Source: Ignavibacteria bacterium
GTDB lineage: Bacteria; Bacteroidota; Ignavibacteria; Ch128b
Assembly: GCA_026415235.1 (NCBI GenBank)
Contig: JAOAHM010000044.1
Coordinates: 1 to 49,692, forward strand
Direction of reading: 5' to 3'
Length of the DNA stretch: 49,692 nt
Part shown: in pieces, positions 1,360 to 23,695 of the stretch
How positions within the stretch are numbered: the stretch's first letter is position 1
Layout of the letters: every line of letters begins with the position of its first letter
Notes under the pieces: model-generated
Told to the model about the DNA's origin: nothing
The model's database searches: none
The model's input: the letters and a program-made list of their open reading frames with translations, nothing else
Made by a program: the position numbers and the translations under genes

Positions 1360-3425
1360 TGGCTTCAAGCAAAGAAGAAAAAGTACTGAATAAAAAACCA
1401 ACAGGCAGAAAAGAAGTTGCTGGTGGAATGACCAAGGAAGAGTTAATCTCAGTTTTGCGTTATATGATGCTTTCAAGAGCAATTGATGAAAAGCTTTTAA
1501 GAATGTTGAAGCAAGGCAAAATTTTCTTCCATATTGGTTGTGCTGGTCACGAAGCAATTCAAGTAGCAATGGCTCGAGCATTAAAGCCAGGATACGATTG
1601 GGCTTTTCCATATTATCGTGGACTCGCATTTTCATTAACACTTGGTATTAAACCAGAAGAAGTTTTTTTACATTCACTTGGTAAAGCAGATGACCCTTTC
1701 ACTGGTGGAAGGCAGATGCCTGGTCATTATGGTTCAAAAAGTTTGAATATTCCAACTCAATCATCACCAACTGGTTCGCAGTATTTACAAGCTGTTGGAT
1801 GTGCATTAGCATCAAGAAAACTTGGAAGAGATGAGGTGACAGTGGTATCATCAGGTGAAGGTGCAACAAGCGAAGGCGAATTTCACGAAGCAGTAAACTG
1901 GGCAAGCAGAGAAAAACTTCCTGTTATATTTTTAATTGAGAATAATCGTTGGGCAATTTCAGTTCCTGTTGAATGTCAAGTTGGTGGTGAAGGTGGTTCC
2001 GTTTATGAAATGACAAAAGGTTACAAAAATCTTTTACGCTTAAAAGTTGATGGAACAAATTTCCTTGAGTCAAATGTAGCTGCAGTTTCGGCAGTTAAAT
2101 ATGCACGAACTGGTCAAGGACCAGTTTTAATTGAAGCTGATGTTGTTCGTTTACTTCCGCATTCATCCTCGGACGACCACAGAAAATATCGTTCGCCTGA
2201 AGAACTTGAGTTGGATCGTCAGAAAGATCCAATCCTTCGCTTTAAAAATCTTCTTATTGAAAAAGAAGTATTAACTGAACTTGCGTATAAAGAATTAGAA
2301 AAAGAGGTTCATGATAGAGTAGAAGAAGCTGCTGCTTGGGCTGAAACAGCTCCTGATCCAAAACCTGAAACTGCATTACTTCATGTCTTCTCTGATGCAA
2401 TCACTCGAAAAGATATTATTTACGAGAAAAATGATAATCCAGGAAAACCAATTGTAATGGTTGATGCAATTAATCATGCTTTGAAAGAGGAGATGGAACG
2501 ACATCCAAACATGTACATCTTTGGTGAAGATATAGCGGATGATAAAGGTGGTGTTTTTACTGCAACAAAAGGATTATCAACTCGATTTGGTAACGAAAGA
2601 GTTTTCAATTCACCACTTGCTGAGGCAAGTATTGTTGGTGTTGCAATTGGAATGGCTTTGCGTGGTTTAAAACCAGTTGTCGAAATTCAATTTGCTGATT
2701 ATATCTGGCCCGCAATGCAACAAATTCGTGATGAGCTTGCAACTATTCGATATCGCTCGAATGGTGTTTGGGCAGCTCCTGTGGTAATTCGAACTGCTTG
2801 TGGTGGATTTATTCACGGTGGACTTTATCATAGTCAGAATATTGAAGGATTCTTTGCACATTGTCCTGGACTTTACATTGCATATCCTTCTAATGCTGCT
2901 GATGCAAAAGGACTTTTGAAAACGGCTATTCATTTAGATGATCCAGTTTTGTTTTTAGAACATAAAGGACTTTATCGTCAAACTTTTGCAATGTCTCCCG
3001 AACCAGATGTTGATTACATGATTCCTTTTGGTAAAGCTTCAATCAAACAAGAAGGAAATGATTTGACCATTGTAACTTGGGGAATGATGGTTCACGAAAG
3101 CATTAAAGCTGCAAACGAGTTGAAAGATTATTCCATTGAAATTATTGATATCAGAACAATCATACCATTAGATAAAGAAACAATCTTCAATAGTGTCAAG
3201 AAAACAGGAAAAGTTTTGATTGTTCATGAAGATACTTTGACTGCTGGATTTGGTGCCGAGATTGCAGCATTGATTTCAGATAATTGTTTTCAATATCTTG
3301 ATGGTCCAGTAAAGAGACTTGCTGCTCACGATACTCACATTCCTTATCATCCAAATCTTGAGAATTTTATTTTACCTAACAAAGAAAAAATCAAAAAAGC
3401 GATTAAAGAAATAATTGAATTTTAA
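1359..3425 (+). CDS. Fused E1 alpha-beta component of a 2-oxoacid dehydrogenase (branched-chain type)
   Basis: Thiamine-diphosphate E1 enzyme of 688 residues that decarboxylates a 2-oxoacid and reductively acylates the lipoyl group of E2. Residues of about 25-335 are the alpha chain, with the ThDP/Mg motif GEGATSEGEF...ENN; the first motif position reads GEG rather than the textbook GDG. Residues of about 360-688 are the beta chain, with IFGEDIADDKGGVF, VFNSPLAEASIVG and a normal C-terminal transketolase domain. The two chains are separate genes in many bacteria; the single-chain form occurs in Bacteroidota-like lineages. The sequence looks most like branched-chain (2-oxoisovalerate) enzymes, but pyruvate cannot be excluded. 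SD cggaggg precedes ATG 1359. It is followed by E2 after 10 bases. Confidence 0.9.
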   Translation: MASSKEEKVLNKKPTGRKEVAGGMTKEELISVLRYMMLSRAIDEKLLRMLKQGKIFFHIGCAGHEAIQVAMARALKPGYDWAFPYYRGLAFSLTLGIKPEEVFLHSLGKADDPFTGGRQMPGHYGSKSLNIPTQSSPTGSQYLQAVGCALASRKLGRDEVTVVSSGEGATSEGEFHEAVNWASREKLPVIFLIENNRWAISVPVECQVGGEGGSVYEMTKGYKNLLRLKVDGTNFLESNVAAVSAVKYARTGQGPVLIEADVVRLLPHSSSDDHRKYRSPEELELDRQKDPILRFKNLLIEKEVLTELAYKELEKEVHDRVEEAAAWAETAPDPKPETALLHVFSDAITRKDIIYEKNDNPGKPIVMVDAINHALKEEMERHPNMYIFGEDIADDKGGVFTATKGLSTRFGNERVFNSPLAEASIVGVAIGMALRGLKPVVEIQFADYIWPAMQQIRDELATIRYRSNGVWAAPVVIRTACGGFIHGGLYHSQNIEGFFAHCPGLYIAYPSNAADAKGLLKTAIHLDDPVLFLEHKGLYRQTFAMSPEPDVDYMIPFGKASIKQEGNDLTIVTWGMMVHESIKAANELKDYSIEIIDIRTIIPLDKETIFNSVKKTGKVLIVHEDTLTAGFGAEIAALISDNCFQYLDGPVKRLAAHDTHIPYHPNLENFILPNKEKIKKAIKEIIEF

Positions 3426-3435
3426 TGGAGGAAAA

Positions 3436-5037
3436 ATGAAAGTTGAAGTTGTTATGCCTAAAATGGGCGAAAGTGTAAACGAAGGAACTATTATTAAATG
3501 GCATAAAAAAGTCGGTGATAAAGTTGATAAAGACGAAATCATTTTTGAAATAAGTACCGATAAAGTTGATACTGAAATACCTTCTCCTGCTTCTGGAATT
3601 TTAGCAGAGATAAAAGTTTTTGAACAAGAGACAGTTCCTGTTGGGACAGTTGTCGCTTTGATTGAAACCGATGCAACTCAAGAAATCAAACCTCAAGAAC
3701 CGTCTCCAGAAACAACTCAAGAAAAAAGTACATCTGCATCTCAATCACAAGAATTGATTGATGTTGTTATGCCAAAGATGGGCGAAAGTGTAACTCAAGG
3801 AACAATAATCAAATGGCATAAGAATGTTGGCGATAAAGTTGCTAAAGACGAGACATTATTTGAAATAAGCACGGATAAGGTAGATACAGAAGTTCCATCA
3901 CCAGCTGAAGGTGTGCTTGCGGAAATTTTGGTTAAAGAACAAGAGACAGTTGATGTTGGTGTTGTTGTTGCAAGAATTTCTCCCACAGGATATGTTCTGA
4001 AAGTTTCAAGAGAAGAAACTAAACCAGTGGAAATGGAACAACAAGTTACTACACAAAAAACTGAAATAATTGAAAAGAAAGAGAAAACTGAAAAATCAAG
4101 ATTTTATTCTCCACTTGTTCTAAAGATTGCTCAAGAAGAAAAAGTTTCGATGGAAGAACTTGAAATGATTGAAGGTACTGGTCTTGGTGGAAGAGTTACA
4201 AAGAAAGATATCTTAAATTACATTGAGCAAAGAAAAGCTGGTAAAGTAGCTCCACCAAAACCTGTTGAACCAAAAGTTACTCAACCCGAAAGAAAAGTTG
4301 TTGAAGAAGTTGTTGAACGAGTTCAATTTGCTCCAGGTGAAAAGGTTAAGATTGAACCGATGGATCATATGCGTCAATTGATTATGGAACACATGGTTAA
4401 GAGTCGTGATACTTCAGTTCATGTTGTCGGTATTCAAGAAGTTGATATGACTAAAATTCATAATTACATTCAGAAGAATAAAGATGCATTCTTTGAAAGA
4501 GAAGGTGTTAAATTAACTTATTTGCCATTCATTGTAGATGCAGTTGTAAAAGCATTGAAAGAATATCCTTATGTAAATGCATCAATTGATGGTAAAAATA
4601 TTGTTTTGAAAAATTACATAAACATTGGAATAGCAGTTGCCCTTGAACCAATGGGATTGATTGTACCAGTAATTAAAAATGCAGATGAAAAAAATATTAC
4701 TGGACTTGCAAAGTCAATTTATGATTTAGCAACTCGAGCACGAAGTAAAAAACTTTTACCTGATGAAGTGAAAGACAGTACATTTACAATTACGAATTAC
4801 GGTCTCTATGGAACACTCTTTGGCAATCCAATTATAAATCAACCAGAAGTTGCAATACTTGGAGTTGGTGCTGTAACCAAAAAGCCAGTTGTTGTTGAAG
4901 TTGATGGTCAAGATACAATCGCTATTCGACACATGATGTATATTTCCCTTTGCCATGATCATCGTTTAATTGATGGTGCATTAGCTGGTAAATTTATGCG
5001 AAGAGTAAAAGAATTGTTAGAAAATTTTGAAGGATAA
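3436..5037 (+). CDS. Dihydrolipoamide acyltransferase (E2) with two lipoyl domains
   Basis: Core acyltransferase of the dehydrogenase complex, 533 residues. In order: lipoyl domain 1 (about 1-80, lipoyl Lys43 in STDKVDTE), a Pro/Gln/Ser/Thr-rich linker, a nearly identical lipoyl domain 2 (about 105-185, Lys148 in STDKVDTE), a second linker, a peripheral-subunit-binding domain (from about 220, SPLVLKIAQEEKV...GRVTKKDIL), an Ala/Pro/Val linker, and the CoA-dependent catalytic domain ending in H509-RLI-D513-G, the active-site His/Asp. I chose ATG 3436 because the SD tggagga sits just upstream; an earlier in-frame ATG at 3415 lies within E1 and adds only seven residues. The acyl group is not certain, but the neighbour E1 points to branched-chain acyl-CoA. 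Confidence 0.92.
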   Translation: MKVEVVMPKMGESVNEGTIIKWHKKVGDKVDKDEIIFEISTDKVDTEIPSPASGILAEIKVFEQETVPVGTVVALIETDATQEIKPQEPSPETTQEKSTSASQSQELIDVVMPKMGESVTQGTIIKWHKNVGDKVAKDETLFEISTDKVDTEVPSPAEGVLAEILVKEQETVDVGVVVARISPTGYVLKVSREETKPVEMEQQVTTQKTEIIEKKEKTEKSRFYSPLVLKIAQEEKVSMEELEMIEGTGLGGRVTKKDILNYIEQRKAGKVAPPKPVEPKVTQPERKVVEEVVERVQFAPGEKVKIEPMDHMRQLIMEHMVKSRDTSVHVVGIQEVDMTKIHNYIQKNKDAFFEREGVKLTYLPFIVDAVVKALKEYPYVNASIDGKNIVLKNYINIGIAVALEPMGLIVPVIKNADEKNITGLAKSIYDLATRARSKKLLPDEVKDSTFTITNYGLYGTLFGNPIINQPEVAILGVGAVTKKPVVVEVDGQDTIAIRHMMYISLCHDHRLIDGALAGKFMRRVKELLENFEG

Positions 5038-8873: not shown

Positions 8874-9833
8874 TCATTTAATCAAAATCATTTTCTTGCT
8901 AATCGTACCATAATTTGTCTTTAATCTATAAATATAAATTCCACTTGATAAACCAGAACCATCAAAACTTATTTCATAGTAACCAGATTTATAAAAGCCA
9001 TGAAGTATTGTTTTAATTTTAGTTCCAATTAAATTATAAACGGATAGCTCAACATCAGTGTCTTTGTTCAAATTGAATGCAATGATAGTAGATGGATTGA
9101 AAGGATTAGGATAATTGTTAAACAATTCAAAATCTTTTAATAAGAATTGATTCTTTTCAACATTAGTTTGTGTACCTCTTAAACTATTGATAAACAACGC
9201 ATTTGTTTGATTGTTTGGTTGACCGAGTATTAGAGTTGAACTTGTATCTGCATCTAAACCATTGAAGTCAGTTAGTTGAGAATTAGAGTTTTTTGCAAAA
9301 GCAAATTTCCCAGTTCCAGTTGTTCCACTACTTCTTAATTTTGGTTCTGGTGCTTGATTAAAATAGGTTCCTGCTGCACCTGAACCAAAAGCATGAATAC
9401 AACCAGATACACCAGCTGGTTCACTTCCTGCAGCTTTTATCATAACTAATTCAGTTGAAGCGATATCAAAAGTGCCTGAACCAAGCTGCTGAAAATACAA
9501 AGTATCCCTCAACCCAACATCAATTAAATAATCCGATGTATCTACATCATTTGTTTGGTTACTGACTCGAATAACTATCAAAGTTCCTTTTGGTAATTTA
9601 CTCCATAAATCAATATCTCTAAATTGATACCTTCCTCCATTATCACCACCCATGCTGCTTGAAAAATCTTTTAAAATCATTCCACGAAGATTTAGGTTAT
9701 TCTCTATTACTAAAAGTTCAACTGCGTCATTCAATCCGTTTGACTGACCACTGTTAAAAAATTTATTAATTACAACACTTTGAGCAAACATTAAGTTTGT
9801 AATGAACAAAATTGTAAAAATAAAGTTTTTCAT
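8874..9833 (-). CDS. Secreted lamin-tail-like protein with type IX secretion C-terminal sorting domain
   Basis: 319 residues. An N-terminal signal peptide (MKNFIFTILFITNLMFAQS) is followed by a beta-rich region resembling a lamin-tail domain (VVINKFFNSG...NDAVELLVIENNLNLRGMILKD). The last about 85 residues are a Por/T9SS sorting domain: FELFNNYPNPFNPSTIIAFNL, VELSVYNLIGTKIKTI, the Gly/Ser-rich turn SGIYIYRLK and a short charged end KKMILIK. Known T9SS cargo crosses the inner membrane by Sec and the outer membrane by T9SS, after which the tail is cleaved and the protein released or anchored. No catalytic motif is visible, so function is unknown; adhesion or surface binding is a guess. ATG 9833 has SD agaggtg. 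It is alone on its strand and divergent from the response regulator. Confidence 0.85.
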   Translation of the reverse strand: MKNFIFTILFITNLMFAQSVVINKFFNSGQSNGLNDAVELLVIENNLNLRGMILKDFSSSMGGDNGGRYQFRDIDLWSKLPKGTLIVIRVSNQTNDVDTSDYLIDVGLRDTLYFQQLGSGTFDIASTELVMIKAAGSEPAGVSGCIHAFGSGAAGTYFNQAPEPKLRSSGTTGTGKFAFAKNSNSQLTDFNGLDADTSSTLILGQPNNQTNALFINSLRGTQTNVEKNQFLLKDFELFNNYPNPFNPSTIIAFNLNKDTDVELSVYNLIGTKIKTILHGFYKSGYYEISFDGSGLSSGIYIYRLKTNYGTISKKMILIK

Positions 9834-10480: not shown

Positions 10481-10554
<74 letters not shown>

Positions 10555-10568
10555 CTGACCAACAAAAT

Positions 10569-10642
10569 GGTGAGCTTAGCTCAGTTGGTAGAGCGCCAGA
10601 TTGTGGCTCTGGTGGTCACGGGTTCGAGTCCCGTAGCTCACC
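10569..10642 (+). tRNA. tRNA-His (anticodon GTG)
   Basis: 74 nt counting the encoded extra G at position -1 (10569), which faces the discriminator C at 10642, the identity feature of tRNA-His. Acceptor gtgagct pairs with agctcac; anticodon stem ccaga/tctgg with loop ttgtggc gives anticodon GTG. CCA is not encoded. Confidence 0.96.
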
Positions 10643-10651
10643 CTTTGTAAT

Positions 10652-10723
10652 GGCCCCATCGTCTAACGGTTAGGACATCACTCTTTCAAGGTGAAAATAC
10701 GGGTTCGATTCCCGTTGGGGTCA
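10652..10723 (+). tRNA. tRNA-Glu (anticodon TTC)
   Basis: 72 nt: acceptor ggcccca pairs with tggggtc (one G-U), anticodon loop ctttcaa gives TTC, T arm cgggttcgattcccg. CCA is not encoded. It ends 58 bases before the PqqD-like gene, with no T-run terminator between, so read-through into that operon is possible. Confidence 0.96.
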
Positions 10724-10741
10724 CTAAGTTATTCGGAGATA

Positions 10742-10781: not shown

Positions 10782-11027
10782 ATGAAATTAAATAAAAATC
10801 TTGCTTTAAGTGAAAGTGGTTTTGCCTTCAACGGCTCCACAGGTGATTCCTTTATCTTAAATGAAACCGCACTTTTTATCCTTTCAAAAATTAAATCCAA
10901 CCTATCAAAAGAAGAAATTCTAAATTCTTTAATTGAAGAATATGATGTTAATCCAATAACAGCTGAAAAAGATTTGTTAGATTTTTTTAATCAATTGAAA
11001 ATTTTCGACTTACTTGAGGATGAATAA
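10782..11027 (+). CDS. PqqD-like (RRE-type) small protein
   Basis: 81 residues with the PqqD/coenzyme-PQQ-synthesis-D pattern: GFAFNGSTGDSFILNETALFIL, then a helix LSKEEILNSLIEEYDVNPITAEKDLLDFFNQLKIFDLL. Known PqqD-like proteins bind a leader peptide and present it to a modifying enzyme, often a radical SAM protein. No radical SAM partner lies nearby; the partner here is an ATP-grasp ligase whose start overlaps this stop by one base (TAATG). ATG 10782 follows an SD-like aggtg; a TTG at 10767 would add five residues. No precursor-peptide gene is visible next to it. It may be a peptide- or acyl-carrier-like adaptor, which is inference. It is first in the coupled run 10782-17981. Confidence 0.8.
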   Translation: MKLNKNLALSESGFAFNGSTGDSFILNETALFILSKIKSNLSKEEILNSLIEEYDVNPITAEKDLLDFFNQLKIFDLLEDE

Positions 11028-12061
11028 TGAAAATAGCTGTTACTGGATTAAACAATACTGATAATCCTGGACCTGGTGTACCATTCATTCGTTCTTTATT
11101 AAGCCATCCTGATTTTGATGGTGAGATAATAGGTCTACATTATGAAAATCTTGAACCAGGGATTTACATGGAAGGTATCAAATCAAAATCTTATATGATA
11201 CCTTATCCATCTCAAGGTCCAGAGAGTTTGCTCGAACGACTTAGATATATTCACTCAAAAGAAAACCTGAATGTCATCATACCAACTTTAGATTCAGAAT
11301 TGTATAACTTCATCCACATTTCTGATGAATTGAATTCTCTCGGAATAAAAACATTCTTACCAACAATTGACAATCTCGAAAAAAGATCAAAAGATAAATT
11401 GTTCGAATTTTGTCAGGAAAATGAAATTAATTCACCAAAAACTTTTGTAATCAATTCTCTAAATCAAGTTAATGAGATACTTAAAGAACTGAAATTTCCA
11501 ATTGTTGTAAAAGGAATTTTTTACGAAGCTTATGTTTGTCATACTCTTGATGAGGTATCTAACAATTTCTACAAACTTGCTTCAAAGTGGGGTTTACCAA
11601 TTATCATTCAAGAGTATTTGAGTGGTGATGAAGTTAATGTTGCAGCAGTTGGTGATGGTGAAGGGAATACAATTGGCGCTGTTGCAATGCGAAAACTTTT
11701 TATTACTGATAAAGGTAAGGGTTGGGCTGGTGTAACTATAGGAGATGAAAACTTAATTAATTTAACTCATAAAGTTATTTCAGCACTGAAGTGGCGCGGT
11801 GGACTTGAACTTGAAATCTTAAAATCTCGAAAAGACAATAAATATTATCTTCTTGAAATAAATTCCCGATTGCCAGCATGGGTTTATTTGACTCAAGCAG
11901 CAGGACAAAACTTATCGTATTTTCTTTTTCAACTTGCTCTTGGTGAAAAAGTCGAGCCTGTGCGTGATTATGAAATTGGAAAGATGTTTGTGCGTTGTTC
12001 GATTGATTTAATTTCTGATATAAAAACTTATGAAAAAATTGCAGTCTACGGAGAATTATAA
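11027..12061 (+). CDS. ATP-grasp ligase (CarB/PylC-like)
   Basis: 344 residues. An N-terminal pre-ATP-grasp domain (KIAVTGLNNTDNPGPGVPFI, then the NVIIPTLDSELY strand) precedes the ATP-grasp fold. ATP-binding Lys lies in FPIVVKGIF, the hinge in IIIQEYLSGDEVNVAAVGD, and the metal-binding Glu/Asn pair in LLEINSRLP. Members of this fold join a carboxylate, through acyl phosphate, to an amine or thiol. It is coupled to the PqqD-like gene before and the decarboxylase after by one-base overlaps, so it probably acts with them, for example by loading an amino acid onto a carrier or peptide. The substrate cannot be read from the sequence. It is not a D-Ala-D-Ala ligase or a full CarB. Confidence 0.82.
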   Translation: MKIAVTGLNNTDNPGPGVPFIRSLLSHPDFDGEIIGLHYENLEPGIYMEGIKSKSYMIPYPSQGPESLLERLRYIHSKENLNVIIPTLDSELYNFIHISDELNSLGIKTFLPTIDNLEKRSKDKLFEFCQENEINSPKTFVINSLNQVNEILKELKFPIVVKGIFYEAYVCHTLDEVSNNFYKLASKWGLPIIIQEYLSGDEVNVAAVGDGEGNTIGAVAMRKLFITDKGKGWAGVTIGDENLINLTHKVISALKWRGGLELEILKSRKDNKYYLLEINSRLPAWVYLTQAAGQNLSYFLFQLALGEKVEPVRDYEIGKMFVRCSIDLISDIKTYEKIAVYGEL

Positions 12062-13419
12062 TGGAAAAACAAAAAAAGGTCTATGTTAAACCAATCATAA
12101 CAAAACAAAAAACTGGATTTGTTGGAAAATTTGGCAAAGCAGGATTGCATTCAGTCTTGGAAAAAATTGATGGAGTTGATATTGAAGAACTTGTTGAAAA
12201 ATTTGGTTCACCTTTGTTTGTAATTTCAGAGAAAACAATTAGAGCAACTCAAAGAAAAGCACTTAGAATTTTTAAGACAAGATACCCAAAAGTTCAATTT
12301 GCATGGTCTTATAAAACTAATTATCTAAATGCAGTGTGCTTAGTTTTTCACGAAGAAGGTTCGTGGGCAGAAGTTGTCTCAGAATTTGAATATGATAAAG
12401 CTAAATTGTTAGGTGTTCCAGGAAATAAGATTATTTACAACGGACCACACAAATCAAAATCATCTTTAATTAAAGCGATTAATGACGAAGCATTTATTCA
12501 TATTGACCACTTCGACGAGTTGTTTAGTTTAATTGAGTTAACAGAGGAAATTAAGAAAACAGCTAAGGTTGCTGTGCGTGTGAATATGGATACAGGAATC
12601 TATCCTAAATGGGATAGATTTGGATTGAATTATGAAAATGGTGAAGCCTATGAAGCAATTCGTAGAATTATGTTAAGTGATAAATTGAACTTGGTAGGTT
12701 TGCATTGTCATATTGGCACTTACATCTTATCAACCGATGCTTTCAAAATAGCTGCTTACAAATTAACCGACTTATACAAACGAGTTAAATACGAATTCAA
12801 TCATCAACTTGATTACATCGATATTGGTGGTGGTATTCCAAGTAAAAACACATTGTACTCTTATTATCTGGATGCGAGTGTGAGCATTCCATCTCTTGAA
12901 GATTATGCAGATGCAATTACATCAGGAATAATTGAACATGGTTTGAAATCAGATGAATTACCACTTTTAATTCTTGAATCAGGCAGAGCATTGATTGATG
13001 AAGCTGGTTATTTAATAACAACTGTAGTTGCAAATAAAAGACTCAGCAATGGAAAACAAGCAATCATAGTTGATGCTGGTGTTAATCTACTCTTTACAAG
13101 TTTTTGGTATAAACACAAAATTTCAACGACTGAATTTTATGGTGAAGTAAGGGATGAGTCGGTAATTTATGGTAATCTTTGCATGAACATTGATGTATTG
13201 CGAGATGGAGTTTTTCTTCCGCCAGTTCCAGTAGGTAAACAGATTATCTTTCATAATGTTGGTGCTTACAATATGACTCAGTGGATGCAGTTCATAAATT
13301 TAAGACCAAATGTTGTAATGATTATGGAAGATGGTTCAGTTGAAGTAATTAGAAAAGCTGAAACCTTAAATACAATTAATGAACTTGAGCGAATTCCCGA
13401 AAAATTATTGAAGAAATGA
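12061..13419 (+). CDS. PLP-dependent decarboxylase of the DapDC/ODC fold, divergent active site
   Basis: 452 residues, fold type III: alanine-racemase-like barrel with Schiff-base lysine K85 (AWSYKTNY), phosphate/glycine loops HCHIGT and DIGGGIPSKN, ESGRALIDEAG, then the C-terminal sheet domain with C374-MNI-D378 and GAYNMTQWMQF. In diaminopimelate decarboxylase the motif is C-E-S-x-D and in ornithine decarboxylase the residue after Cys is Asp; the acidic residue there binds the distal amino group. Here it is Met, so the substrate probably differs from DAP, ornithine or lysine. About 45 extra N-terminal residues are Lys-rich. It is coupled by one base to the ATP-grasp gene and by ATGA to the transporter fusion. 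A conventional LysA role looks unlikely but is not excluded. Confidence 0.8.
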   Translation: MEKQKKVYVKPIITKQKTGFVGKFGKAGLHSVLEKIDGVDIEELVEKFGSPLFVISEKTIRATQRKALRIFKTRYPKVQFAWSYKTNYLNAVCLVFHEEGSWAEVVSEFEYDKAKLLGVPGNKIIYNGPHKSKSSLIKAINDEAFIHIDHFDELFSLIELTEEIKKTAKVAVRVNMDTGIYPKWDRFGLNYENGEAYEAIRRIMLSDKLNLVGLHCHIGTYILSTDAFKIAAYKLTDLYKRVKYEFNHQLDYIDIGGGIPSKNTLYSYYLDASVSIPSLEDYADAITSGIIEHGLKSDELPLLILESGRALIDEAGYLITTVVANKRLSNGKQAIIVDAGVNLLFTSFWYKHKISTTEFYGEVRDESVIYGNLCMNIDVLRDGVFLPPVPVGKQIIFHNVGAYNMTQWMQFINLRPNVVMIMEDGSVEVIRKAETLNTINELERIPEKLLKK

Positions 13420-15563
13420 GTTTATCTATTATTATTATTGATTCGGTACTTTTCAGTTACTCACAAATCTTTTTTTCCAATCGAAGATGGTTTGGATTAT
13501 TAGTTTTACTTGCAACATTTATCTCGCCAGTTCATGGCTCAATAATTTTGTTTTCTAATTTAATTACAAACATCATTGCACTTCTTTTGAAATATGAACA
13601 GAAAAAAATTAGAGAAGGTTTTTACGGCTTTAATGGATTATTATTAGGTGGGGCAATAAGTTTCTTTTATAAACCAAATGAATATTTCTTTCCTATTCTT
13701 TTAATTTTTTTAATCATAAATTTTTTCATCAATGCTGCAATTGAAAATTATTTCGCCTTTGCTTTTAACTTACCAGGACTGAGTTTTCCATTTTTACTTT
13801 CGTTCTATTTATTCGCTATTTTTAATAGCGCTCTTCATCTTTTCGATTTTAATACCGAAATGTTTTTTCAAAGCACATTTCACTTAATTTCTGTTTCAAC
13901 TGAAATAAATTTATTCTTACAAAATTTGGGATTTTTAGTCTTACAAAATTCAATCATATCGGGATTAATCGTATTAATTGCAATCCTATTTTTTTCGAGA
14001 ATTATGTTTTTGCTTTCGATTGTAGGATATTTATTTGCATTATTTTATTTGCACTTTTTTAGGATACCGATTGACTCTCAGCTTGGCATTTTAATCAGTT
14101 TGAATTCCATAATTGTCTCAATTGCACTTGGTGGTTCTTTGATTATTCCTTCGAATAGGTCATTCGTCTTGAGTTTTTTAGGAGTATCGGTTGTCACAAT
14201 CTTTACAATAGTTTTAAGCACATTACTTCAAAAAGTAAACTTAAGTGTTTTTGTATTGCCATTTAATTTTACTGTCTTTTTGATAATCTATGCTTTAAAA
14301 TTCCGAGAGAGTAGTGGTGAAGTTGTTTTACTTTATTTCAAACCAGGTTCACCTGAAGAAAATTATTACTATCATAAGAACCAAAAGGCGAGATTTGAGA
14401 AATATAAATTTATAAATGTCGGATTACCATTTAATGGTGAATGGACTGTATCTCAAGGTTTTGATGGTGAATTTACTCACAAAGAAGATTGGCGATATGC
14501 TTTCGATTTTGTAGTAACAGATGAAAAAGGTAAAACATATGATAATACGGGTACAAAGTTAGAAGATTATCATTGTTATGGTTTACCAGTTTGTGCGACT
14601 TACAAAGGAAAGGTCATAAAAGTTATTGATGGAATTGATGAGAATGAAGTAGGTAAAGTTAACATCAAACAAAATTGGGGGAATACAGTTATCATTGACC
14701 ATGGACAAGGACTTTTCTCAGCGGTTTCGCATCTGAAAAAAAATACTATTCGAGTGAAGGAAGGTGATGAAGTTGAGAAAGGAGATGTCTTAGGAAATTG
14801 TGGAAATAGTGGTCGTTCTCCAGAACCTCATATTCACTTTCAATTTCAAAAAAATGATAAGCTCGGTGCAGCGACAATTAAATTCCCATTCGGACATTAT
14901 CTCGTTAATCGTGGTGAATTTTTAGAATTAAAATCATACGATTATCCACTTAAAGATGAAAAAATTCAAAAACTTGAGATTAATTCAAAGATTAAACAAG
15001 CATTTAATTTTGAATACGGAGATAAATTTGAAGTTCAATTCAAAAAAGACGAAAAAGTAGTAAAGGAAATTTGGGAAGTGAAAGTTGATCCGTATAACAT
15101 CCCTTACATCGAAGCTTCAACGGGTTCTTACGCAACATTTTTTGCTGATGAGGAAGTGTTCTACTTTACAAGTTATGTTGGCAAAAAGAAAGATGCCCTT
15201 TATCATTTTTATCTTGCTGCAATTCAAATTCCTTTCACTTCGATGAATAAAGTTCGATGGAATGATACTTATCCCATCTCTATCTTCACTAATAAACTTA
15301 TCATGATTTTAAGCGATGCCTTGATTTTGATTTATAATCCTTTCAAAGCAGAAGGTAATTTTACAATAAGTGAAGAGGAAAATGGTGATTATCTCTTTTT
15401 GAATAGAATTGAATTTTTTGGAAATGGAATTTTTAGTTCAATAAATTGGAGTAGAGATTATAAAGTTATTGTTGATAAAAATGGATTTTTGAAATCATTT
15501 TATTTTATTGATAGAAAAAATATTAAAAACGAATTTACATTTATAATGGAGGAAGAAAGATGA
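13416..15563 (+). CDS. Urea-transporter-like membrane domain fused to an M23 metallopeptidase domain
   Basis: 715 residues. Residues of about 1-300 are hydrophobic with many membrane segments and carry urea-transporter (SLC14/UT) hallmarks: IREGFYGFNGLLLGGAISFF near residue 65 and LPGLSFPFLLSFYL near 125, with a diverged second repeat. Residues of about 335-480 are an M23 (LytM-like) domain: H355 and D364 (THKEDWRYAFDF), the SHL histidine and H472-I-H474 (EPHIHF), giving a full zinc site. A further about 240 residues have no family I recognise. M23 enzymes cut peptidoglycan cross-bridges, so the domain should face the periplasm. The start ATG overlaps the decarboxylase stop and the stop overlaps the TPR gene, both as ATGA. 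The transported molecule is unknown. Confidence 0.82.
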   Translation: MSLSIIIIDSVLFSYSQIFFSNRRWFGLLVLLATFISPVHGSIILFSNLITNIIALLLKYEQKKIREGFYGFNGLLLGGAISFFYKPNEYFFPILLIFLIINFFINAAIENYFAFAFNLPGLSFPFLLSFYLFAIFNSALHLFDFNTEMFFQSTFHLISVSTEINLFLQNLGFLVLQNSIISGLIVLIAILFFSRIMFLLSIVGYLFALFYLHFFRIPIDSQLGILISLNSIIVSIALGGSLIIPSNRSFVLSFLGVSVVTIFTIVLSTLLQKVNLSVFVLPFNFTVFLIIYALKFRESSGEVVLLYFKPGSPEENYYYHKNQKARFEKYKFINVGLPFNGEWTVSQGFDGEFTHKEDWRYAFDFVVTDEKGKTYDNTGTKLEDYHCYGLPVCATYKGKVIKVIDGIDENEVGKVNIKQNWGNTVIIDHGQGLFSAVSHLKKNTIRVKEGDEVEKGDVLGNCGNSGRSPEPHIHFQFQKNDKLGAATIKFPFGHYLVNRGEFLELKSYDYPLKDEKIQKLEINSKIKQAFNFEYGDKFEVQFKKDEKVVKEIWEVKVDPYNIPYIEASTGSYATFFADEEVFYFTSYVGKKKDALYHFYLAAIQIPFTSMNKVRWNDTYPISIFTNKLIMILSDALILIYNPFKAEGNFTISEEENGDYLFLNRIEFFGNGIFSSINWSRDYKVIVDKNGFLKSFYFIDRKNIKNEFTFIMEEER

Positions 15564-16201
15564 AAAAATGGTTCTATCTCTTGAGTACTATTTTGATTTT
15601 AATTGGCAGTGTTGTTTTAAATCGAGTTTTGTTCTCACAAGAATATGACTCGAAAATTAAAGCATTCAATAACTCTATCAACTTAGCAGAAAAAGGAAAT
15701 TATCAAAAAGCAATTGATGAATTATTGAATGTTTATTCGAAAAATTCAGATGATTATCTAATAAACCTCAGACTTGGTTATTTGTATTATCTACAAAAGA
15801 AATATGACCAATCAATAAACTATTACAAAAAAGCATTTGATTTGAGTAAAGAAAATTCCATAGAAGCACTTTTGGGTTTAACACTTCCACTTGCAGGTCA
15901 AGAAAAATGGACAGAAGTTGAAAAAATATATCACAAAATTTTGGGTTATGATAAAAACAACTACACTGCAAATTTGAGATTGGGTCAGATTTATTTTAAT
16001 CGAAAAGAATACTCAAAAGCAGAGAATTATCTTAAAAATGTTTACAATTTCTATCCGAGCGATTACGAAACAAATCTTTATCTCGGATGGACATATTTTT
16101 ATCTCAACAAAAAAGATGAAGCAAGAAAGCATTTCATAAATACTTTAATGGTGAGTGAGAATGATAAATCAGCTTTGGAAGGATTAAAGCTTGTCAAGTA
16201 A
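15560..16201 (+). CDS. TPR protein, exported or membrane-anchored
   Basis: 213 residues. An N-terminal hydrophobic segment (about residues 5-26) ends in LFSQEY, a possible signal-peptidase I site. Four to five tetratricopeptide repeats follow, for example NYQKAIDELLNVYSKNSDDY, KYDQSINYYKKAFDL and EYSKAENYLKNVYNFYPSDY. TPR proteins are protein-binding scaffolds; here, in the periplasm, it probably links the M23/transporter protein and the outer-membrane barrel encoded on either side. The start overlaps the upstream stop by four bases, and its end contains the TTG start of the barrel gene. Confidence 0.82.
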   Translation: MKKWFYLLSTILILIGSVVLNRVLFSQEYDSKIKAFNNSINLAEKGNYQKAIDELLNVYSKNSDDYLINLRLGYLYYLQKKYDQSINYYKKAFDLSKENSIEALLGLTLPLAGQEKWTEVEKIYHKILGYDKNNYTANLRLGQIYFNRKEYSKAENYLKNVYNFYPSDYETNLYLGWTYFYLNKKDEARKHFINTLMVSENDKSALEGLKLVK

Positions 16202-17021
16202 AATTTTTATTCTTTTTATTATTTCTTTTTCAAAAATTTTTTCACAAATAAATTTACACTTCCAACCTTCGGCTTACTTCACTTATGGAAGTTATTCAAA
16301 TAAAACTATTTCGACTCAATATTCTCTATTTACGAGTTTAAGTCCTAATCAAATAGATTATTTTGTTTTTGGTTATGATGGAATTAATCTTAAACACGAT
16401 TTTTGGAAGTATAATCAAAATAATTTATCAGTAGGTTTGCATTACTGGATTCCCGATTTGAATTTGAAACTCAAGCTTGATTATGTTTATCTAAAAGGAA
16501 AATATTCAGACGACTTAACAACTCAACCTTTAATTGACAACGCTTCACTTATCTCACCTGAAATAATCTATGGTTACTATCCATCGTTTTACGGAATAGG
16601 TTATGCTCGTTTCAATCAAAAAGGAAATAACAAAATTCAATCAAATCAATTTTATGTAAGATTAGGTTACTATCCTCATTATAAATTGCTGATTAGTCTT
16701 TTACCATCTTTTCATCTGACTGAAAATCTTTCATCAAATCAATCAAAATATTTATCACTTCAAACTGCAATTTTTTATTCACCTATTTATGAACTTTCAA
16801 TTGGAACAACATTCACAATTGGTTCAAGAAAATTTTTTTATAATCCTGATTTGATGGTTTTATATAATCAATTGGAAACACAAACTGGTAATTACTCAAT
16901 TCAATTGAATTATAATTTCTTCAAAAATTTTGTTGCTTCTTTGAACTACCAGAAGTCAAGATTTGCAGGTTATGAAATTGATTATTTTGTAATTGGGATT
17001 AAATCATCATTCTATTTTTAA
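16191..17021 (+). CDS. Outer-membrane beta-barrel protein (YaiO-like)
   Basis: 276 residues with a signal peptide (MSSKIFILFIISFSKIFSQ) followed by alternating aromatic beta-strands typical of an outer-membrane barrel, ending in the terminal-aromatic pattern IGIKSSFYF. The arrangement of a TPR protein followed by such a barrel resembles YaiO-family proteins; the match is by style, not by a firm motif. The start is TTG 16191, inside the TPR gene, with SD aagga eight bases before; it is the only start that gives a signal peptide. It may be the outer-membrane part of the 10782-17981 module. The LD-carboxypeptidase follows after 18 bases. Confidence 0.7.
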   Translation: MSSKIFILFIISFSKIFSQINLHFQPSAYFTYGSYSNKTISTQYSLFTSLSPNQIDYFVFGYDGINLKHDFWKYNQNNLSVGLHYWIPDLNLKLKLDYVYLKGKYSDDLTTQPLIDNASLISPEIIYGYYPSFYGIGYARFNQKGNNKIQSNQFYVRLGYYPHYKLLISLLPSFHLTENLSSNQSKYLSLQTAIFYSPIYELSIGTTFTIGSRKFFYNPDLMVLYNQLETQTGNYSIQLNYNFFKNFVASLNYQKSRFAGYEIDYFVIGIKSSFYF

Positions 17022-17039
17022 TTAAATAGGAGAACAAAA

Positions 17040-17981
17040 GTGAAAATCATAAAACCACCACATCTCAAAAAAGGAGATTTAATCGGATTAATTTCACCTG
17101 CCTCAACTCCTGATAATCTCGAACGAATAAATGAAGGTGTGAAGTATTTCGAAAGACTTGGATATCGTGTAATCGTTGGAAAGAATGTTGGGAGGTATCG
17201 TGGATATTTAGCTGGTACCGATGAGGAAAGACTTGAAGATTTGCATTCAATGTTTAGCAACAAAGAAGTGAAAGCTATTTTTTGTGTTCGAGGTGGTTAT
17301 GGTTCAATCAGATTGTTAGATAAAATTGACTACAATTTGATAAAAAGAAATCCAAAAATTTTTGTCGGTTATAGTGATATAACATCGTTGCAACTTGCAA
17401 TTTTTCATAAGACTGGGCTTGTATCTTTTTCTGGTCCAATGGCAGCAGTTGACTTTGCAGGTGAAGTAAATTCATTCACAGAAGAAGTTTTTTGGCGAAT
17501 GGTCACTTCAACTAAACCTTTTGGAAAATTAAAAAATCCTGAAAGTGATAGAATTTGTTGTCTTACCAGTGGTGAAGCAAAAGGAATCTTACTTGGCGGA
17601 AATTTATCATTAGTTGTTTCTTTGTTAGGAACACCTTTCTTACCTAAGTTTGATAAAGCAATTCTTTTCTTGGAAGAAATAGAAGAAAAGCCTTATCGAA
17701 TTGATAGATTTTTTGCTCAGATGAAACTTGCAAAAATTTTTGATAAAGTGTCTGGAATTATTTTGTGTTCATTCACTGATTGTGAAGAGACAGATCCAAA
17801 CAAGAAATCACTTTCACTTAATGATGTGGTGGGCGATTACTTCGAAAAATTGAAAAAGCCTGTTTTTTATAATCTAATCTATGGTCATGTTAATCCAAAA
17901 AATACAATCCCGATTGGAATTCGTGCTGCAATTGATTGTAAAAAATGTAGTGTTGAAATAACAGAAGCTTGCGTCACTTAG
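17040..17981 (+). CDS. L,D-carboxypeptidase family protein (S66, LdcA/MccF-like)
   Basis: 313 residues of serine peptidase family S66. Catalytic Ser112 lies in FVGYSDITSLQ, the Glu in AILFLEEIEEKPYRIDR, and the His in IYGHVNPKNTIPIGI near residue 286. LdcA removes the terminal D-Ala from murein tetrapeptides in the cytoplasm; the related MccF hydrolyses peptide-nucleotide antibiotics as self-immunity. There is no signal peptide, so it is cytoplasmic. Start GTG 17040 follows SD aggaga. Its place at the end of the PqqD/ATP-grasp/decarboxylase run suggests either muropeptide recycling linked to the M23 protein or removal of a residue from the product of the cluster. Confidence 0.88.
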   Translation: MKIIKPPHLKKGDLIGLISPASTPDNLERINEGVKYFERLGYRVIVGKNVGRYRGYLAGTDEERLEDLHSMFSNKEVKAIFCVRGGYGSIRLLDKIDYNLIKRNPKIFVGYSDITSLQLAIFHKTGLVSFSGPMAAVDFAGEVNSFTEEVFWRMVTSTKPFGKLKNPESDRICCLTSGEAKGILLGGNLSLVVSLLGTPFLPKFDKAILFLEEIEEKPYRIDRFFAQMKLAKIFDKVSGIILCSFTDCEETDPNKKSLSLNDVVGDYFEKLKKPVFYNLIYGHVNPKNTIPIGIRAAIDCKKCSVEITEACVT

Positions 17982-18020: not shown

Positions 18021-18245
18021 ATGAGCGAGATTTTTGTAACCTGTTCTGAATGTGGAACCCAATTCTACATGTATGATTACGAAGCAAAAGCATGTCCACA
18101 CTGTGGTAAAGTAGCTCGTGGTCCAAAATCATCAAGTGATATTTATGTAACTTGTAATAATTGCGGAGAGAAGTTTTATATCTATAGCTGGGAAAGTAAA
18201 CCATGTCCACATTGTGGAAAAGTTGTAAGGGGACCTCAAGCTTAA
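18021..18245 (+). CDS. Small protein with two tandem zinc ribbons
   Basis: 74 residues made of two near-copies of a 35-residue unit, IFVTCSECGTQFYMYDYEAKACPHCGKVARGP and IYVTCNNCGEKFYIYSWESKPCPHCGKVVRGP read in blocks, each with two CxxC knuckles (eight cysteines in all). This should bind two zinc ions. An excellent SD (ggaggt) precedes ATG 18021. It lies 39 bases after the LD-carboxypeptidase on the same strand and ends directly against the convergent amidase stop. No known name fits; a zinc-ribbon adaptor for nucleic acid or protein binding is possible. Confidence 0.8.
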   Translation: MSEIFVTCSECGTQFYMYDYEAKACPHCGKVARGPKSSSDIYVTCNNCGEKFYIYSWESKPCPHCGKVVRGPQA

Positions 18246-19660: not shown

Positions 19661-20538
19661 AACTCATCAACAATTTTTCTAATTAACTTTATATCTTTTG
19701 GATTACCTCCACAACATACTCCAATCACTTTTACATTTCGTTTGATTAGTTCTTCTACAAAAATTTTTAATTCATCACTTCGAAAATCACGAACCAACTT
19801 TCCAGTTGAAAAACTTTCAATTGAACCAAGATTAGGATAAACACCAAATGGACCAAAATCTTGCAATACATCTAAAGCTTTGAGTATTAACTCAGGTCTT
19901 GAACAATTTAAGGAAACAAAAAGTGGATTGTGCTTCTCAATTAATTCAAATGTCTTGATTAAATCTTGATTGAAGAAAGTTTTTAATTCTGAATTGATAA
20001 GAACACTAACAGCGAAGGGAAATTTCATCTCTAAACAAATCCGACAAACAATCTCAATTTCTTTAGCATCTCCAAAAGTTTCGTTAAGAATAAAATCCAC
20101 TTTATTCTCGATAAGATTTTGAATATGCTCCGAGTGATTATTATAAAGTTCACTTTCAGAAATTAATCTTTGGGTCAAATAACAATCATCTGCGGGAGCA
20201 TTTGAGCCAGCGATTAAAACTTTTTTATTAGTAGTAGAGATTGATTTCTTAGCTAAATTTACAGCAATTTTTACTAATTCTTTGGAATTAACATTCACAC
20301 CAGAAAGTTTAATTGCGTAGGGATTTGTTCTGAAAGTGTTTGTTGTGATTATATCTGCTCCAGATGAAATATAATCTTTGTGAATTTCTAAAACTTTATC
20401 AGGAGCATTTAGCAATGCCAAGGCAGACCAAAGCTTCGAACCCAAATCTACTCCACGATCTATTAGCAATGTACCCATTGGTCCATCTAATACAAGTGGC
20501 TTCTTCAATTGAAGTAATAAATTTCTGTCAAGTTGCAT
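19657..20538 (-). CDS. Homocysteine S-methyltransferase family protein
   Basis: 293 residues, a zinc-dependent barrel like the N-terminal part of MetH or MmuM. It has LDGPMGTLLIDRG near residue 18, TNTFRTNPYA, the first zinc Cys in SLNCSRPE and the Cys pair in IGVCCGGNP. The methyl donor could be S-methylmethionine or a methylated corrinoid, which sequence alone does not show. It overlaps the GT9 stop by 11 bases and ispE by four. The full set of three zinc cysteines indicates an active enzyme. Confidence 0.88.
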   Translation of the reverse strand: MQLDRNLLLQLKKPLVLDGPMGTLLIDRGVDLGSKLWSALALLNAPDKVLEIHKDYISSGADIITTNTFRTNPYAIKLSGVNVNSKELVKIAVNLAKKSISTTNKKVLIAGSNAPADDCYLTQRLISESELYNNHSEHIQNLIENKVDFILNETFGDAKEIEIVCRICLEMKFPFAVSVLINSELKTFFNQDLIKTFELIEKHNPLFVSLNCSRPELILKALDVLQDFGPFGVYPNLGSIESFSTGKLVRDFRSDELKIFVEELIKRNVKVIGVCCGGNPKDIKLIRKIVDEL

Positions 20539-21673
20539 TTTTTATTTCTCGATGAAAGCGATGAACTTCTTTAATCATTCCATCTAAATCAATTCGTTGG
20601 ATACATTCTAAATTATATGGACAGACTTTTTTCCAACACGGAGAACATTCCAAATCTTCTTGATAAAATTTTTTTCCATAATCATACAAATCAATTTCGG
20701 TCCAACAACTTACACCAAACCAAACCAAAACATATTTGCCGAGTCCAATTGATGCATGCATTCCAAAAGAGTCGCCAGTAATGATTAAATCACAAACATC
20801 AATGTAACATAATCCTCTTCTCAAACCTTCAGTAGTTGGAGTAAGAACTGCTTTGTCGCCAACTGCATCTTTGATTTTTTGATTTCGTTCTGTATCCTCT
20901 GGTCCACCAAGCAAGACTAACTTGTATTCGGGAAATTTGGAAAGTTCGTTAATTAAATAAATGTGTTGTTCAACTGTCATTTTTTTGTTTGGATAAAGAT
21001 TTGAACAACCAGTATTGAAACCAACGATTGTTTGAGAAGGATGGTCTAAAATTTTTTGACGAAATTCATGAACGAATTTTTTTTCTTCTTCAGTAAGATT
21101 GAGAATGTATCTATCTCTTTGATAATCATTGTTCCAAGTTTCTGCTAAAATTTCTTGTCCAGTTTTTTGATTAACTCTGAATTTTAAGTAATCATCAACG
21201 CCAAGAAGATAGTTGTAATCTGCAAATGCATTTTCAGGTATGATTTTTCCATCTTCGTTTAGAGTAAAACCATATTTTTCTTTTGCATTAATTGATTTGT
21301 GAAGAGCGCACGAACGCTGAGACTTATCTGCATTCAAAACAAAATCAAATTCCATTTGCTGAAGCAATAGTATGTTTTCAAAATTCCATTCGAGTGGAAC
21401 ATCAATAAATGGATTGTTAAGGAGTAAAGGATAAGCATTCTTCAATGTTATCCAGTAAATTGTTGATTCAGGATATTTCCTTTTCAAACCGTGCAATTGA
21501 GCAGTTGTCATAATTACATCGCCCATTGCATCTAAATTTATGATTAAAATTTTTTTCCCAATTGGATTATTTTCTTTGCATCCTTTTTCAAGACAATTGT
21601 AATAAGGAAAACAAGGTTTGTATCCTGAAAAATTTTTACACTTAGGAATTTCGAAACGAGATTTTTCAATCAT
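20528..21673 (-). CDS. Glycosyltransferase family 9 (heptosyltransferase-like), third of three
   Basis: 381 residues, GT-B fold. The N-terminal motif KKILIINLDAMGDVIMTTAQL is the GT9 acceptor-side loop, with Asp in the catalytic position; the donor-site region reads VCDLIITGDSFGMHASIGLGKYVLVWFG. A Cys-rich stretch (CSPCWKKVCPYNLEC) lies near the end and another (CKNFSGYKPCFPYYNC) near the start, which is less usual. Such enzymes add heptose or similar sugars to lipopolysaccharide core. I start at ATG 21673, seven bases after SD aaggtgg; the ATG at 21682 is too close. It overlaps the preceding GT9 stop by four bases. Confidence 0.9.
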   Translation of the reverse strand: MIEKSRFEIPKCKNFSGYKPCFPYYNCLEKGCKENNPIGKKILIINLDAMGDVIMTTAQLHGLKRKYPESTIYWITLKNAYPLLLNNPFIDVPLEWNFENILLLQQMEFDFVLNADKSQRSCALHKSINAKEKYGFTLNEDGKIIPENAFADYNYLLGVDDYLKFRVNQKTGQEILAETWNNDYQRDRYILNLTEEEKKFVHEFRQKILDHPSQTIVGFNTGCSNLYPNKKMTVEQHIYLINELSKFPEYKLVLLGGPEDTERNQKIKDAVGDKAVLTPTTEGLRRGLCYIDVCDLIITGDSFGMHASIGLGKYVLVWFGVSCWTEIDLYDYGKKFYQEDLECSPCWKKVCPYNLECIQRIDLDGMIKEVHRFHREIKNAT

Positions 21674-22683
21674 ACATTCCACCTTAATTCTTTTATTATG
21701 TCTTCAAATTCATGAATAATTTTTTCAACTGATATATTTTTTATTTCTTCTGTATCGGAAAGAATTGAACGATTAATTGTTTTGTAAGGTGCAAAACTAA
21801 CAAAATTCCATTTTACATTTGGATAGAGTGCAATCACTGGAACTTGAAACGCAGAGCAAATGTGAACAGCTGAAGTATCGGGAGTAATCAACAAATCAAC
21901 ATTCTTAATCTTTGCAGCAAAATGCTGAAAACTTTCACCTGAATGTGAAACAATGAAACGATTATCTACATTCTCTAAAATTCGCTCAGCTATTTTTTTC
22001 TCAGGTAAATTGTAAAGAACAAGAAATCTTATGAATGAAAATTTGTTAGTTAATTTATTTATTAATTCAATCCATTTCTCAACTGGATAAAGACGAATAT
22101 CCGCACCTGAAGAAATATTCAGTCCAACTAACTTAAATTCCTTTTTGAATTTATTTAGCTCGTTAGCAATTGAATTCTCGATGTTATTATCTAAATACAA
22201 AATTGGTTTTACTAATTCGTCAGAAATTTTTAATCCACTTTCTCTAAGTAGATGGGCATATCGTTCAACTAAATGTGTTTCCTCTTTGTTGGGTTGTTCA
22301 ACCTTTATGGTTAGATGTCTACTTTGATATTTGAAATTAAAACCAAGTTTTTCTTTTCCTCTTAATATTTGTAAAAGTAATTTTGAAGTCTTTGAAGGAT
22401 TATCATTCAAATCAATTATCAAGTCAAAAGATTCAGAGGTAAAATTCAACGATAGAATTTTTGGAAGTGATGTGATGTTGTTTTTAATGAATACTATTTC
22501 ATCAATGTCGGGATTTGCACATAAGACATCTTTGTTCTTATCAAGTGTGATTAAATAGATTTTTGTCTTTGGATTATTTTTTTTTATCGCAGTAAAAACA
22601 AAAGAGGAAATAATTATATCACCAATTTTTCCAATTCTTAAGATTAAAATTTTTTTTGTGTTGCTGTAATCAATCTTTTTCAT
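21670..22683 (-). CDS. Glycosyltransferase family 9 (heptosyltransferase-like), second of three
   Basis: 337 residues. The N-terminal motif KKILILRIGKIGDIIISSFVF and the C-terminal VDLLITPDTSAVHICSAFQVPVIALYPN identify GT9. Unlike its two neighbours it lacks the Cys-rich C-terminal motif. It is predicted to transfer a sugar during lipopolysaccharide core or related glycan assembly on the cytoplasmic face. Its ATG lies 14 bases inside the end of the upstream GT9 gene. The substrate is unknown. Confidence 0.9.
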   Translation of the reverse strand: MKKIDYSNTKKILILRIGKIGDIIISSFVFTAIKKNNPKTKIYLITLDKNKDVLCANPDIDEIVFIKNNITSLPKILSLNFTSESFDLIIDLNDNPSKTSKLLLQILRGKEKLGFNFKYQSRHLTIKVEQPNKEETHLVERYAHLLRESGLKISDELVKPILYLDNNIENSIANELNKFKKEFKLVGLNISSGADIRLYPVEKWIELINKLTNKFSFIRFLVLYNLPEKKIAERILENVDNRFIVSHSGESFQHFAAKIKNVDLLITPDTSAVHICSAFQVPVIALYPNVKWNFVSFAPYKTINRSILSDTEEIKNISVEKIIHEFEDIIKELRWNV

Positions 22684-23695
22684 TTTCTTGATTTAGAATT
22701 ATCTCTAATTTTTCGATTACAAGTTTTGGATTTAATTCAATCATACATTCATGTTTTTTGGGGCACTCACGCAAATTACACTGAATACATTCCAATTCAT
22801 CTTTTCTTATCCAAAAACAATTCTTACCGAAAGGTCCGTGAGCGTAAGGATTAGTTGGACCAAAGATTCCAATAGTAGGAATTCCAATTGCAGCAGAAAG
22901 ATGCATTGGTCCAGAATCATTTGCAATAACAGCACGACAATTTGAGATTAGAGCAACCATTTGTCTTAATGTTGTTTCAGGTGCAAGGATTGAAATATCA
23001 GAAGTTAACTGATAAATTTTTTCTGCATCATCAAAATCTTCAGGTCCATAAAGTATTAGAAAATTTAATTTCCATATCTTATAAATTTCTCTGATAATTT
23101 CAGCAAATTTTTCTGGTTCACATTTTTTTGAACTCCAACCTCCACCAGGAATAATTCCAATGGAATTTTTACTGATATTATTTTCAATAAAAAAATTATT
23201 CGCATAATTTTTTTCTTCGTTACTAATGAAGTAAAGAATTTCTTGATGTTCAGTTGTGATGCCAATAACTTTGAGAAATTCCAAGTGAGCAAGAGCTGAA
23301 TGAAGATTTGGATTATCAATTTTTATTTTCAAATCATAAGCATAATTTCTTCCACGCTTGTGATAACCAATTTTCAATTTTGCTTTAGTGAGAAAAGTAA
23401 ATTGAGCAGTTCTTGGATTTGAATAAAAATCAAAAATAATATCAAATTTCTCTTTACGAAGATCTAAAATTAAAGACAAATTATCTTTTAGTGTTTTTCC
23501 GAAAGTCCAAATTTTTGTTATGAATGGATTATTTTCCAGAATAGGCGAAGCAAATTTTTCTGTTAAATAATGAACTTCACAATCATTAAGTTGTGATTTA
23601 ATATTTTTGAGTACGATAGTTGATAAAATTAAATCACCAATTCCGCGTGGTTTGATTAATAAAATCTTTCTGACAGACTTTTGATTTATTATCAT
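22670..23695 (-). CDS. Glycosyltransferase family 9 (heptosyltransferase-like), first of three
   Basis: 341 residues. The N-terminal motif RKILLIKPRGIGDLILSTIVL and the donor-site motif CRAVIANDSGPMHLSAAIGIPTIGIFGPT are standard for ADP-heptose transferases; the C-terminal CIQCNLRECPKKHEC is the Cys motif common in this family. It is the first gene of a six-gene overlapping run to 18246. The 44 bases shared with divergent prmC must hold both promoters; on this strand TAATTTAG there is close to the TAnnTTTG consensus. Confidence 0.9.
   Translation of the reverse strand: MIINQKSVRKILLIKPRGIGDLILSTIVLKNIKSQLNDCEVHYLTEKFASPILENNPFITKIWTFGKTLKDNLSLILDLRKEKFDIIFDFYSNPRTAQFTFLTKAKLKIGYHKRGRNYAYDLKIKIDNPNLHSALAHLEFLKVIGITTEHQEILYFISNEEKNYANNFFIENNISKNSIGIIPGGGWSSKKCEPEKFAEIIREIYKIWKLNFLILYGPEDFDDAEKIYQLTSDISILAPETTLRQMVALISNCRAVIANDSGPMHLSAAIGIPTIGIFGPTNPYAHGPFGKNCFWIRKDELECIQCNLRECPKKHECMIELNPKLVIEKLEIILNQENEKD

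Follow-up and report, generated by a model that had tools for sequence, protein, structure and literature searches.

The DNA analysed here, hereafter the window, is a 49,692-nt stretch of contig JAOAHM010000044.1 (assembly GCA_026415235.1) from an Ignavibacteria bacterium, and carries a string of closely packed genes at positions 10782–17981. The first six of these genes (10782–17021) form a real operon that is conserved across Bacteroidota. The operon encodes a small PqqD-like protein, an ATP-grasp ligase, a pyridoxal 5′-phosphate (PLP) decarboxylase, a fusion of a urea-transporter-fold channel with an M23 metallohydrolase (denoted UT-M23), a TPR protein, and a putative outer-membrane beta-barrel. 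A tentative reading, which falls a little short of an even chance, is that the six genes make and export a small decarboxylated amide. The chemical logic at its center, ligation followed by decarboxylation, is well supported. The operon is phylum-wide and apparently undescribed. Full-text searches of openly licensed literature returned no paper describing it, in line with an earlier note on this DNA that knew of no system with this gene set, and a description elsewhere is possible.

The extent of the operon was defined by comparison among genomes. A scan of a genome collection for the decarboxylase listed at least 80 loci, and 575 candidates encode a relative. The 80 listed loci all belong to Bacteroidota or to groups such as Ignavibacteria and ‘Chlorobi’. 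Gene order was counted with profile searches over 98 loci, comprising the 80 listed and 18 fetched at chosen places. The order PqqD-like, ATP-grasp, decarboxylase is found in 83 of the 85 loci with upstream room, and the decarboxylase adjoins UT-M23 in all 66 with downstream room. Within those 66, UT-M23 is followed by a TPR gene in 63 and by a barrel in 60. The arrangement is kept across Ignavibacteria and Bacteroidia at 45–87% decarboxylase identity and is retained in loci L129–L134 at 45–55%. Such order conservation is far beyond chance. Ignavibacteria have the order UT-M23, TPR, barrel, while in Bacteroidia a TPR-barrel gene sits between UT-M23 and the TPR gene; the sole barrel match of loci L036 and L037 is located upstream.

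The decarboxylase is present in 27 of 297 genomes of a phylum sample, so that roughly one in ten of the Bacteroidota species sampled carries the operon. A second draw of 248 phylum genomes contains the full UT-M23 fusion in 23, with the decarboxylase in 23/23 of those. Among the five core proteins, pairwise distances show correlations of 0.85–0.92 over 55 loci, as expected for a jointly inherited unit, though shared species history contributes. The earlier note proposed ordered co-occurrence of seven families as a test, and the counts above bear it out for the first six. The seventh, an S66 peptidase, is a neighbour of the operon in just five loci (the window, L035, L124, L125, and L126), all of the window's own family; the conserved unit is therefore the six genes, and membership of S66 in the system is withdrawn. 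Two observations concern the searches themselves. Contig C1 of genome G112 has an identical-score decarboxylase match at both ends (2577–3923 and 3733993–3735339), probably an untrimmed circular overlap, and plasmid searches for informative contexts returned LysA-like or distant matches only.

The tight junctions described in the earlier note are confirmed by the open reading frame (ORF) coordinates, with all seven genes on the forward strand. TAATG joins the PqqD-like gene to the ATP-grasp gene and the latter to the decarboxylase gene, while ATGA joins decarboxylase to UT-M23 and UT-M23 to TPR. The TPR and barrel genes overlap by 11 bases, and an 18-base gap separates barrel from S66. No credible promoter or terminator candidate at the operon rose above shuffled sequence.

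The decarboxylase (12061–13419, 452 amino acids) is an alanine-racemase-fold PLP enzyme (Orn_Arg_deC_N 96.9 bits, C-terminal domain 49.8) that resembles FslC/FigC. NCBIfam models score it at 244.7 bits for FslC, 222 for LysA, and 138 for DokD, all far under their cut-offs, which are 500 bits for N-citrylornithine decarboxylase (NF041039) and 297.9 for LysA (TIGR01048). In profile searches against solved structures, FigC (7kh2) is the best relative at 282 bits, ahead of Methanocaldococcus jannaschii LysA at 204 and BtrK at 141. The acid beside the catalytic cysteine of LysA is replaced, with CM instead of CE, in a motif that reads GPLCMNID across the family and GNLCMNID in the window protein. 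The strongest PF02784 match of the genome lies apart from the operon, in a gene on contig C68 that has the typical LysA motif GPACETGD, a candidate LysA. This separate gene and the different specificity residues led to rejection of ordinary LysA as the identity of the operon enzyme, an identity that the earlier note had named as a refuting outcome.

FigC residues were matched to the operon enzyme by counting along the profile alignment, and these equivalences are accordingly inferential; C354, M355, H357, Y383, and R387 land on the residues named in the FigC study (PMC7857480). Conservation was judged over 30 aligned sequences. In the alignment, K63, H198, E287, R290, and C354 of FigC correspond to K85, H217, E306, R309, and C374, invariant in 30/30, and M355 corresponds to M375, also 30/30. 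T327 and Y331 of the FigC specificity helix match T346 and Y350, invariant in the 30, T330 matches W349, and the position of Y383 is likewise invariant. In FigC, M355 takes the place of the acid to which a free side-chain amine binds, R290 and Y331 are modelled as contacting an amide oxygen, and H357 and R387 are predicted citrate contacts (PMC7857480). The last two correspond to I377 and Q407 in 30/30. Retention of the FigC-type replacements together with loss of the citrate contacts argues for ligate-then-decarboxylate chemistry on a non-citryl conjugate. The substrate would be a conjugate with its amino acid held via a side-chain amide, rather than a citryl compound, diaminopimelate (DAP), or a free basic amino acid. 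Members of this clade other than DAPDC or D-ODC more likely serve specialised metabolites (PMC7857480).

The same residues bear on whether the operon makes a citrate-based siderophore like rhizoferrin. FslC and FigC are the nearest relatives of the decarboxylase, but replacement of the contacts equivalent to H357 and R387 throughout the alignment, and operon proteins lacking a NIS synthetase (NRPS-independent siderophore synthetase) or TonB receptor by Pfam, make this explanation very improbable. Rhizoferrin-like citryl chemistry was rejected on the loss of the citrate contacts.

Ligation would fall to the ATP-grasp protein (11027–12061, 344 amino acids), a member of a distinct CPS-like branch that matches ATPgrasp_Ter at 43.5 bits and is modelled with a pLDDT of 89.1. 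Residues E263, E277, N279, and R281 are invariant in the alignment, and we take their roles from general ATP-grasp knowledge. The PqqD-like protein (10782–11027, 81 amino acids) starts at ATG; an alternative in-frame TTG lies at 10767, and homologues begin near the ATG. At 43.0 bits it passes the PF05402 gathering score of 23.4, placing it in the PqqD/RRE fold family (RRE, RiPP recognition element; RiPP, ribosomally synthesized and post-translationally modified peptide). Its best solved relative is the lasso RRE TbiB1 (E=1.6e-13), and it misses the NCBIfam cut-offs for named PqqD and lasso RRE types (17.7 vs 46, 27.8 vs 70, 23.3 vs 80). Alignments show the motif SxSGFxFxPxTG(D/E)SFxxN and a variable C-terminus. 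A LysW-like carrier role was rejected because the C-terminus is unconserved.

UT-M23 (13416–15563, 715 amino acids) has three parts: a channel of urea-transporter fold, an M23 metallohydrolase domain, and, at its C-terminus, a beta domain. The model has a pLDDT of 90.8, and Foldseek matches it to dvUT (3k3f, TMt 0.84) and to M23 domains such as 6smk (TMt 0.79). The first part has the full urea-channel fold (PF03253 148 bits against a threshold of 25), while the dedicated urea-transporter model TIGR03441 gives 103.4 bits against a cut-off of 274.6. The filter is altered, as read against the published residues of dvUT and UT-A2 (PMC4357013). The So-site position (E187 in dvUT, Q in UT-A2) holds a hydrophobic or small residue in 30/30 sequences and never Glu or Gln. 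The Sm-site Thr of urea transporters is replaced by Ser or Val, the T130 position being mostly Ser and the T294 position Val or Ser. The channel fold would be explained if this domain took up urea, or an amide resembling it, for the enzymes to assimilate. This explanation is improbable given the loss of the So-site Glu/Gln and the biosynthetic look of the enzymes. In addition, among 29 genomes that carry the operon a single one has a convincing match to urease alpha, the other matches being weak and short. Urea uptake for urease is disfavoured on the lost So-site residues and the 28/29 genomes with no convincing urease.

The location of the M23 domain was predicted from helix order and the UT-A2/dvUT orientation, in which the T5a-Pb loop is on the periplasmic side (PMC4357013). 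Predicted cytosolic loops hold a mean of 9.5 Lys plus Arg per sequence against 1.7 in periplasmic loops, and the bias is positive in every sequence. Homology orientation and loop bias together predict that the segment after residue 295, M23 included, is cytosolic. Within M23 (PF01551 65.1 bits), the active-site positions of the family (first His, Asp, second His, and HxH) are occupied by H355, D364, H439, H472, and H474 in 30/30. Not all members have the C-terminal beta domain: it is absent from the divergent UT-M23 proteins of L129 (1813–3417) and L130 (5929–7515), whose open frames of 535 and 529 amino acids end soon after the M23 domain. At L138 (8923–11195) UT and M23 are encoded by separate ORFs that overlap, through either a frameshift or a natural split. 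A stand-alone M23-domain relative at L155 (G384:C120) has N-terminal membrane helices, unlike the other fetched homologues, whose N-termini are signal-like.

Cell-envelope remodelling would place M23 on the opposite side of the membrane. In that explanation, the product is an amine linked to peptidoglycan or to the cell surface, and M23 acts together with S66 as an endopeptidase of the periplasm. M23 and S66 are wall-peptide families, the TPR and barrel proteins belong to the envelope, and a protein secreted by the type IX secretion system (T9SS) adjoins the operon in some loci. Confinement of S66 to the window's family, a topology that predicts cytosolic M23, and the absence of LysA substrate residues from the decarboxylase leave it rather unlikely. 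The cell-wall link of the earlier note rested largely on S66 and an assumed periplasmic M23, and it is not supported here.

A mechanism consistent with these features runs from the cytosol outward. The ATP-grasp enzyme would form an amide through the side chain of an amino acid, and a peptide partner would be brought in or held by the PqqD-like protein. Next, the PLP enzyme would strip the alpha-carboxylate from the side-chain-linked amino acid to give an amine, in the manner of FigC following FigA or BtrK following BtrJ. On the cytosolic face of UT-M23, the M23 domain would hydrolyse the conjugate, and the small product may reach the periplasm by way of the urea-channel-like pore. From there, the TPR protein and the barrel could hand it on to the outer membrane or across it. 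A more specific, scaffold-based version appears doubtful: the amino acid would be loaded on an RRE-recognised peptide, decarboxylated, and cut by cytosolic M23 on the exporting pore.

Several points weigh against production and export of a decarboxylated amide. Foldseek with the ATP-grasp model returns the whole ATP-grasp superfamily and thus gives no substrate hint. A search for a conserved small precursor ORF around the 80 loci turned up nothing beyond antisense shadows of larger genes. To our knowledge, M23 enzymes work outside the cytosol, and signal-like N-termini are carried by most of the closest stand-alone homologues fetched, which makes a cytosolic placement unusual; UT-M23 could have the opposite orientation in the membrane, or its M23 domain could have a different role. 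H355, assumed to be a zinc ligand, lies nine residues before D364, compared with four in classical M23. By analogy with urea channels, the pore would pass small neutral molecules only.

A rival explanation is a RiPP-type pathway with its precursor encoded elsewhere, in which the PqqD-like protein binds the leader, the ATP-grasp enzyme and decarboxylase modify the core, M23 serves as leader peptidase, and the UT or another route exports. ATP-grasp enzymes occur within known RiPP pathways, the PqqD-like protein is nearest to TbiB1, and a peptidase is fused to a membrane channel. Against this stand the missing precursor near the operon, a urea-type pore too narrow for a peptide, and an alanine-racemase-fold decarboxylase that requires a free alpha-amino acid group. 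The pathway is considered unlikely. The earlier note's leader-binding assignment remains reasonable in view of the TbiB1 relationship, but no conserved precursor ORF turned up nearby. For its decarboxylated amino-acyl compound, the active-site evidence favours decarboxylation of an amide-held amino acid; the parts left unsupported are S66, the wall link, and the close butirosin parallel.

Of the remaining operon proteins, the TPR protein (15560–16201, 213 amino acids) matches Pfam TPR families and has an N-terminal signal-like segment. The barrel (16191–17021, 276 amino acids, TTG start) is inferred from sequence and has no Pfam or NCBIfam family. Both occupy conserved positions. The S66 LD-carboxypeptidase-like neighbour (17040–17981, 313 amino acids) matches PF02016 and PF17676 (Peptidase_S66 148 bits). 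It is followed by a small protein with two tandem zinc ribbons (18021–18245), which was rejected as a carrier as it has no relatives among the 80 loci listed. A run of three genes for family 9 glycosyltransferases (heptosyltransferase-like) lies at 20528–23692 on the reverse strand. Directly upstream of the operon and on its strand are tRNA genes Arg-TCT, His-GTG, and Glu-TTC (10481–10724), with 57 bases between tRNA-Glu and the PqqD-like ATG. PADLOC matched 0 families for all seven proteins, and an anti-phage defence system was rejected on this result.

Other neighbours vary with lineage. In 18 loci, many from Chitinophagaceae (e.g., L067:7012–7512), PqqD is preceded at a distance of ~100 bases by the gene for a GNAT acetyltransferase, which possibly acts on the amine product. 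A LytS-type kinase, as a rule accompanied by a LytTR regulator, is upstream in 20 loci. T9SS-sorted secreted proteins are encoded beside the operon in the window (8874–9833, reverse strand), L041 (5461–6312), L093 (2839–3663), and L036 (4792–6462); their genes are 13–32 bases upstream of PqqD in several Ignavibacteria and between PqqD and ATP-grasp in some Bacteroidales. All three are lineage additions and not core. The T9SS neighbour recurs upstream in many Ignavibacteria but was rejected as a core member, since hidden Markov model cross-matches may reflect a shared C-terminal sorting domain alone.

If the proposed function is true, the operon encodes an undescribed small-molecule pathway and widens the family of conjugate-acting decarboxylases. 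A urea-channel fold would serve a non-urea role, and an M23 hydrolase would be cytosolic and channel-fused. The scaffold version would further represent a new small-molecule assembly class, with UT-M23 as a single-protein release-and-export device. The decarboxylase active site lets the substrate class be tested directly.

Known systems resemble the operon in parts. C39 peptidase-containing ABC transporters (PCATs) fuse a peptidase to an exporter, and UT-M23, with its predicted cytosolic peptidase, is comparable by analogy only; the families are unrelated, UT-M23 has no ATPase domain, and wide peptide transport is not expected. Lasso RRE proteins (TbiB1 and relatives) and PqqD share the small fold family of the PqqD-like protein, whereas the operon protein scores under the named NCBIfam cut-offs and has no lasso protease, cyclase, or precursor nearby. 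With dvUT, UT-A, and UT-B, UT-M23 shares the full fold (TM-score 0.84 to 3k3f) and predicted membrane orientation; it differs in the lost So-site acid or amide, the changed Sm Thr, the fused M23, and a score below TIGR03441. BtrI/BtrJ/BtrK of butirosin synthesis likewise pair an ATP-grasp ligase with an alanine-racemase-fold decarboxylase on a tethered amino acid. The close parallel drawn in the earlier note is not supported, as the operon has no acyl-carrier protein domain by Pfam and BtrK is more distant than LysA or FigC. FigA/FigC (FslA/FslC) of Francisella rhizoferrin synthesis differ in using an NIS synthetase in place of ATP-grasp and in retaining the citrate contacts, and the PqqD-like, UT-M23, TPR, and barrel genes are additions found in the operon. 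The likeness lies in ligation before decarboxylation of a conjugated amino acid, by a homologous decarboxylase with the M355-type change and with R290 and Y331 kept.

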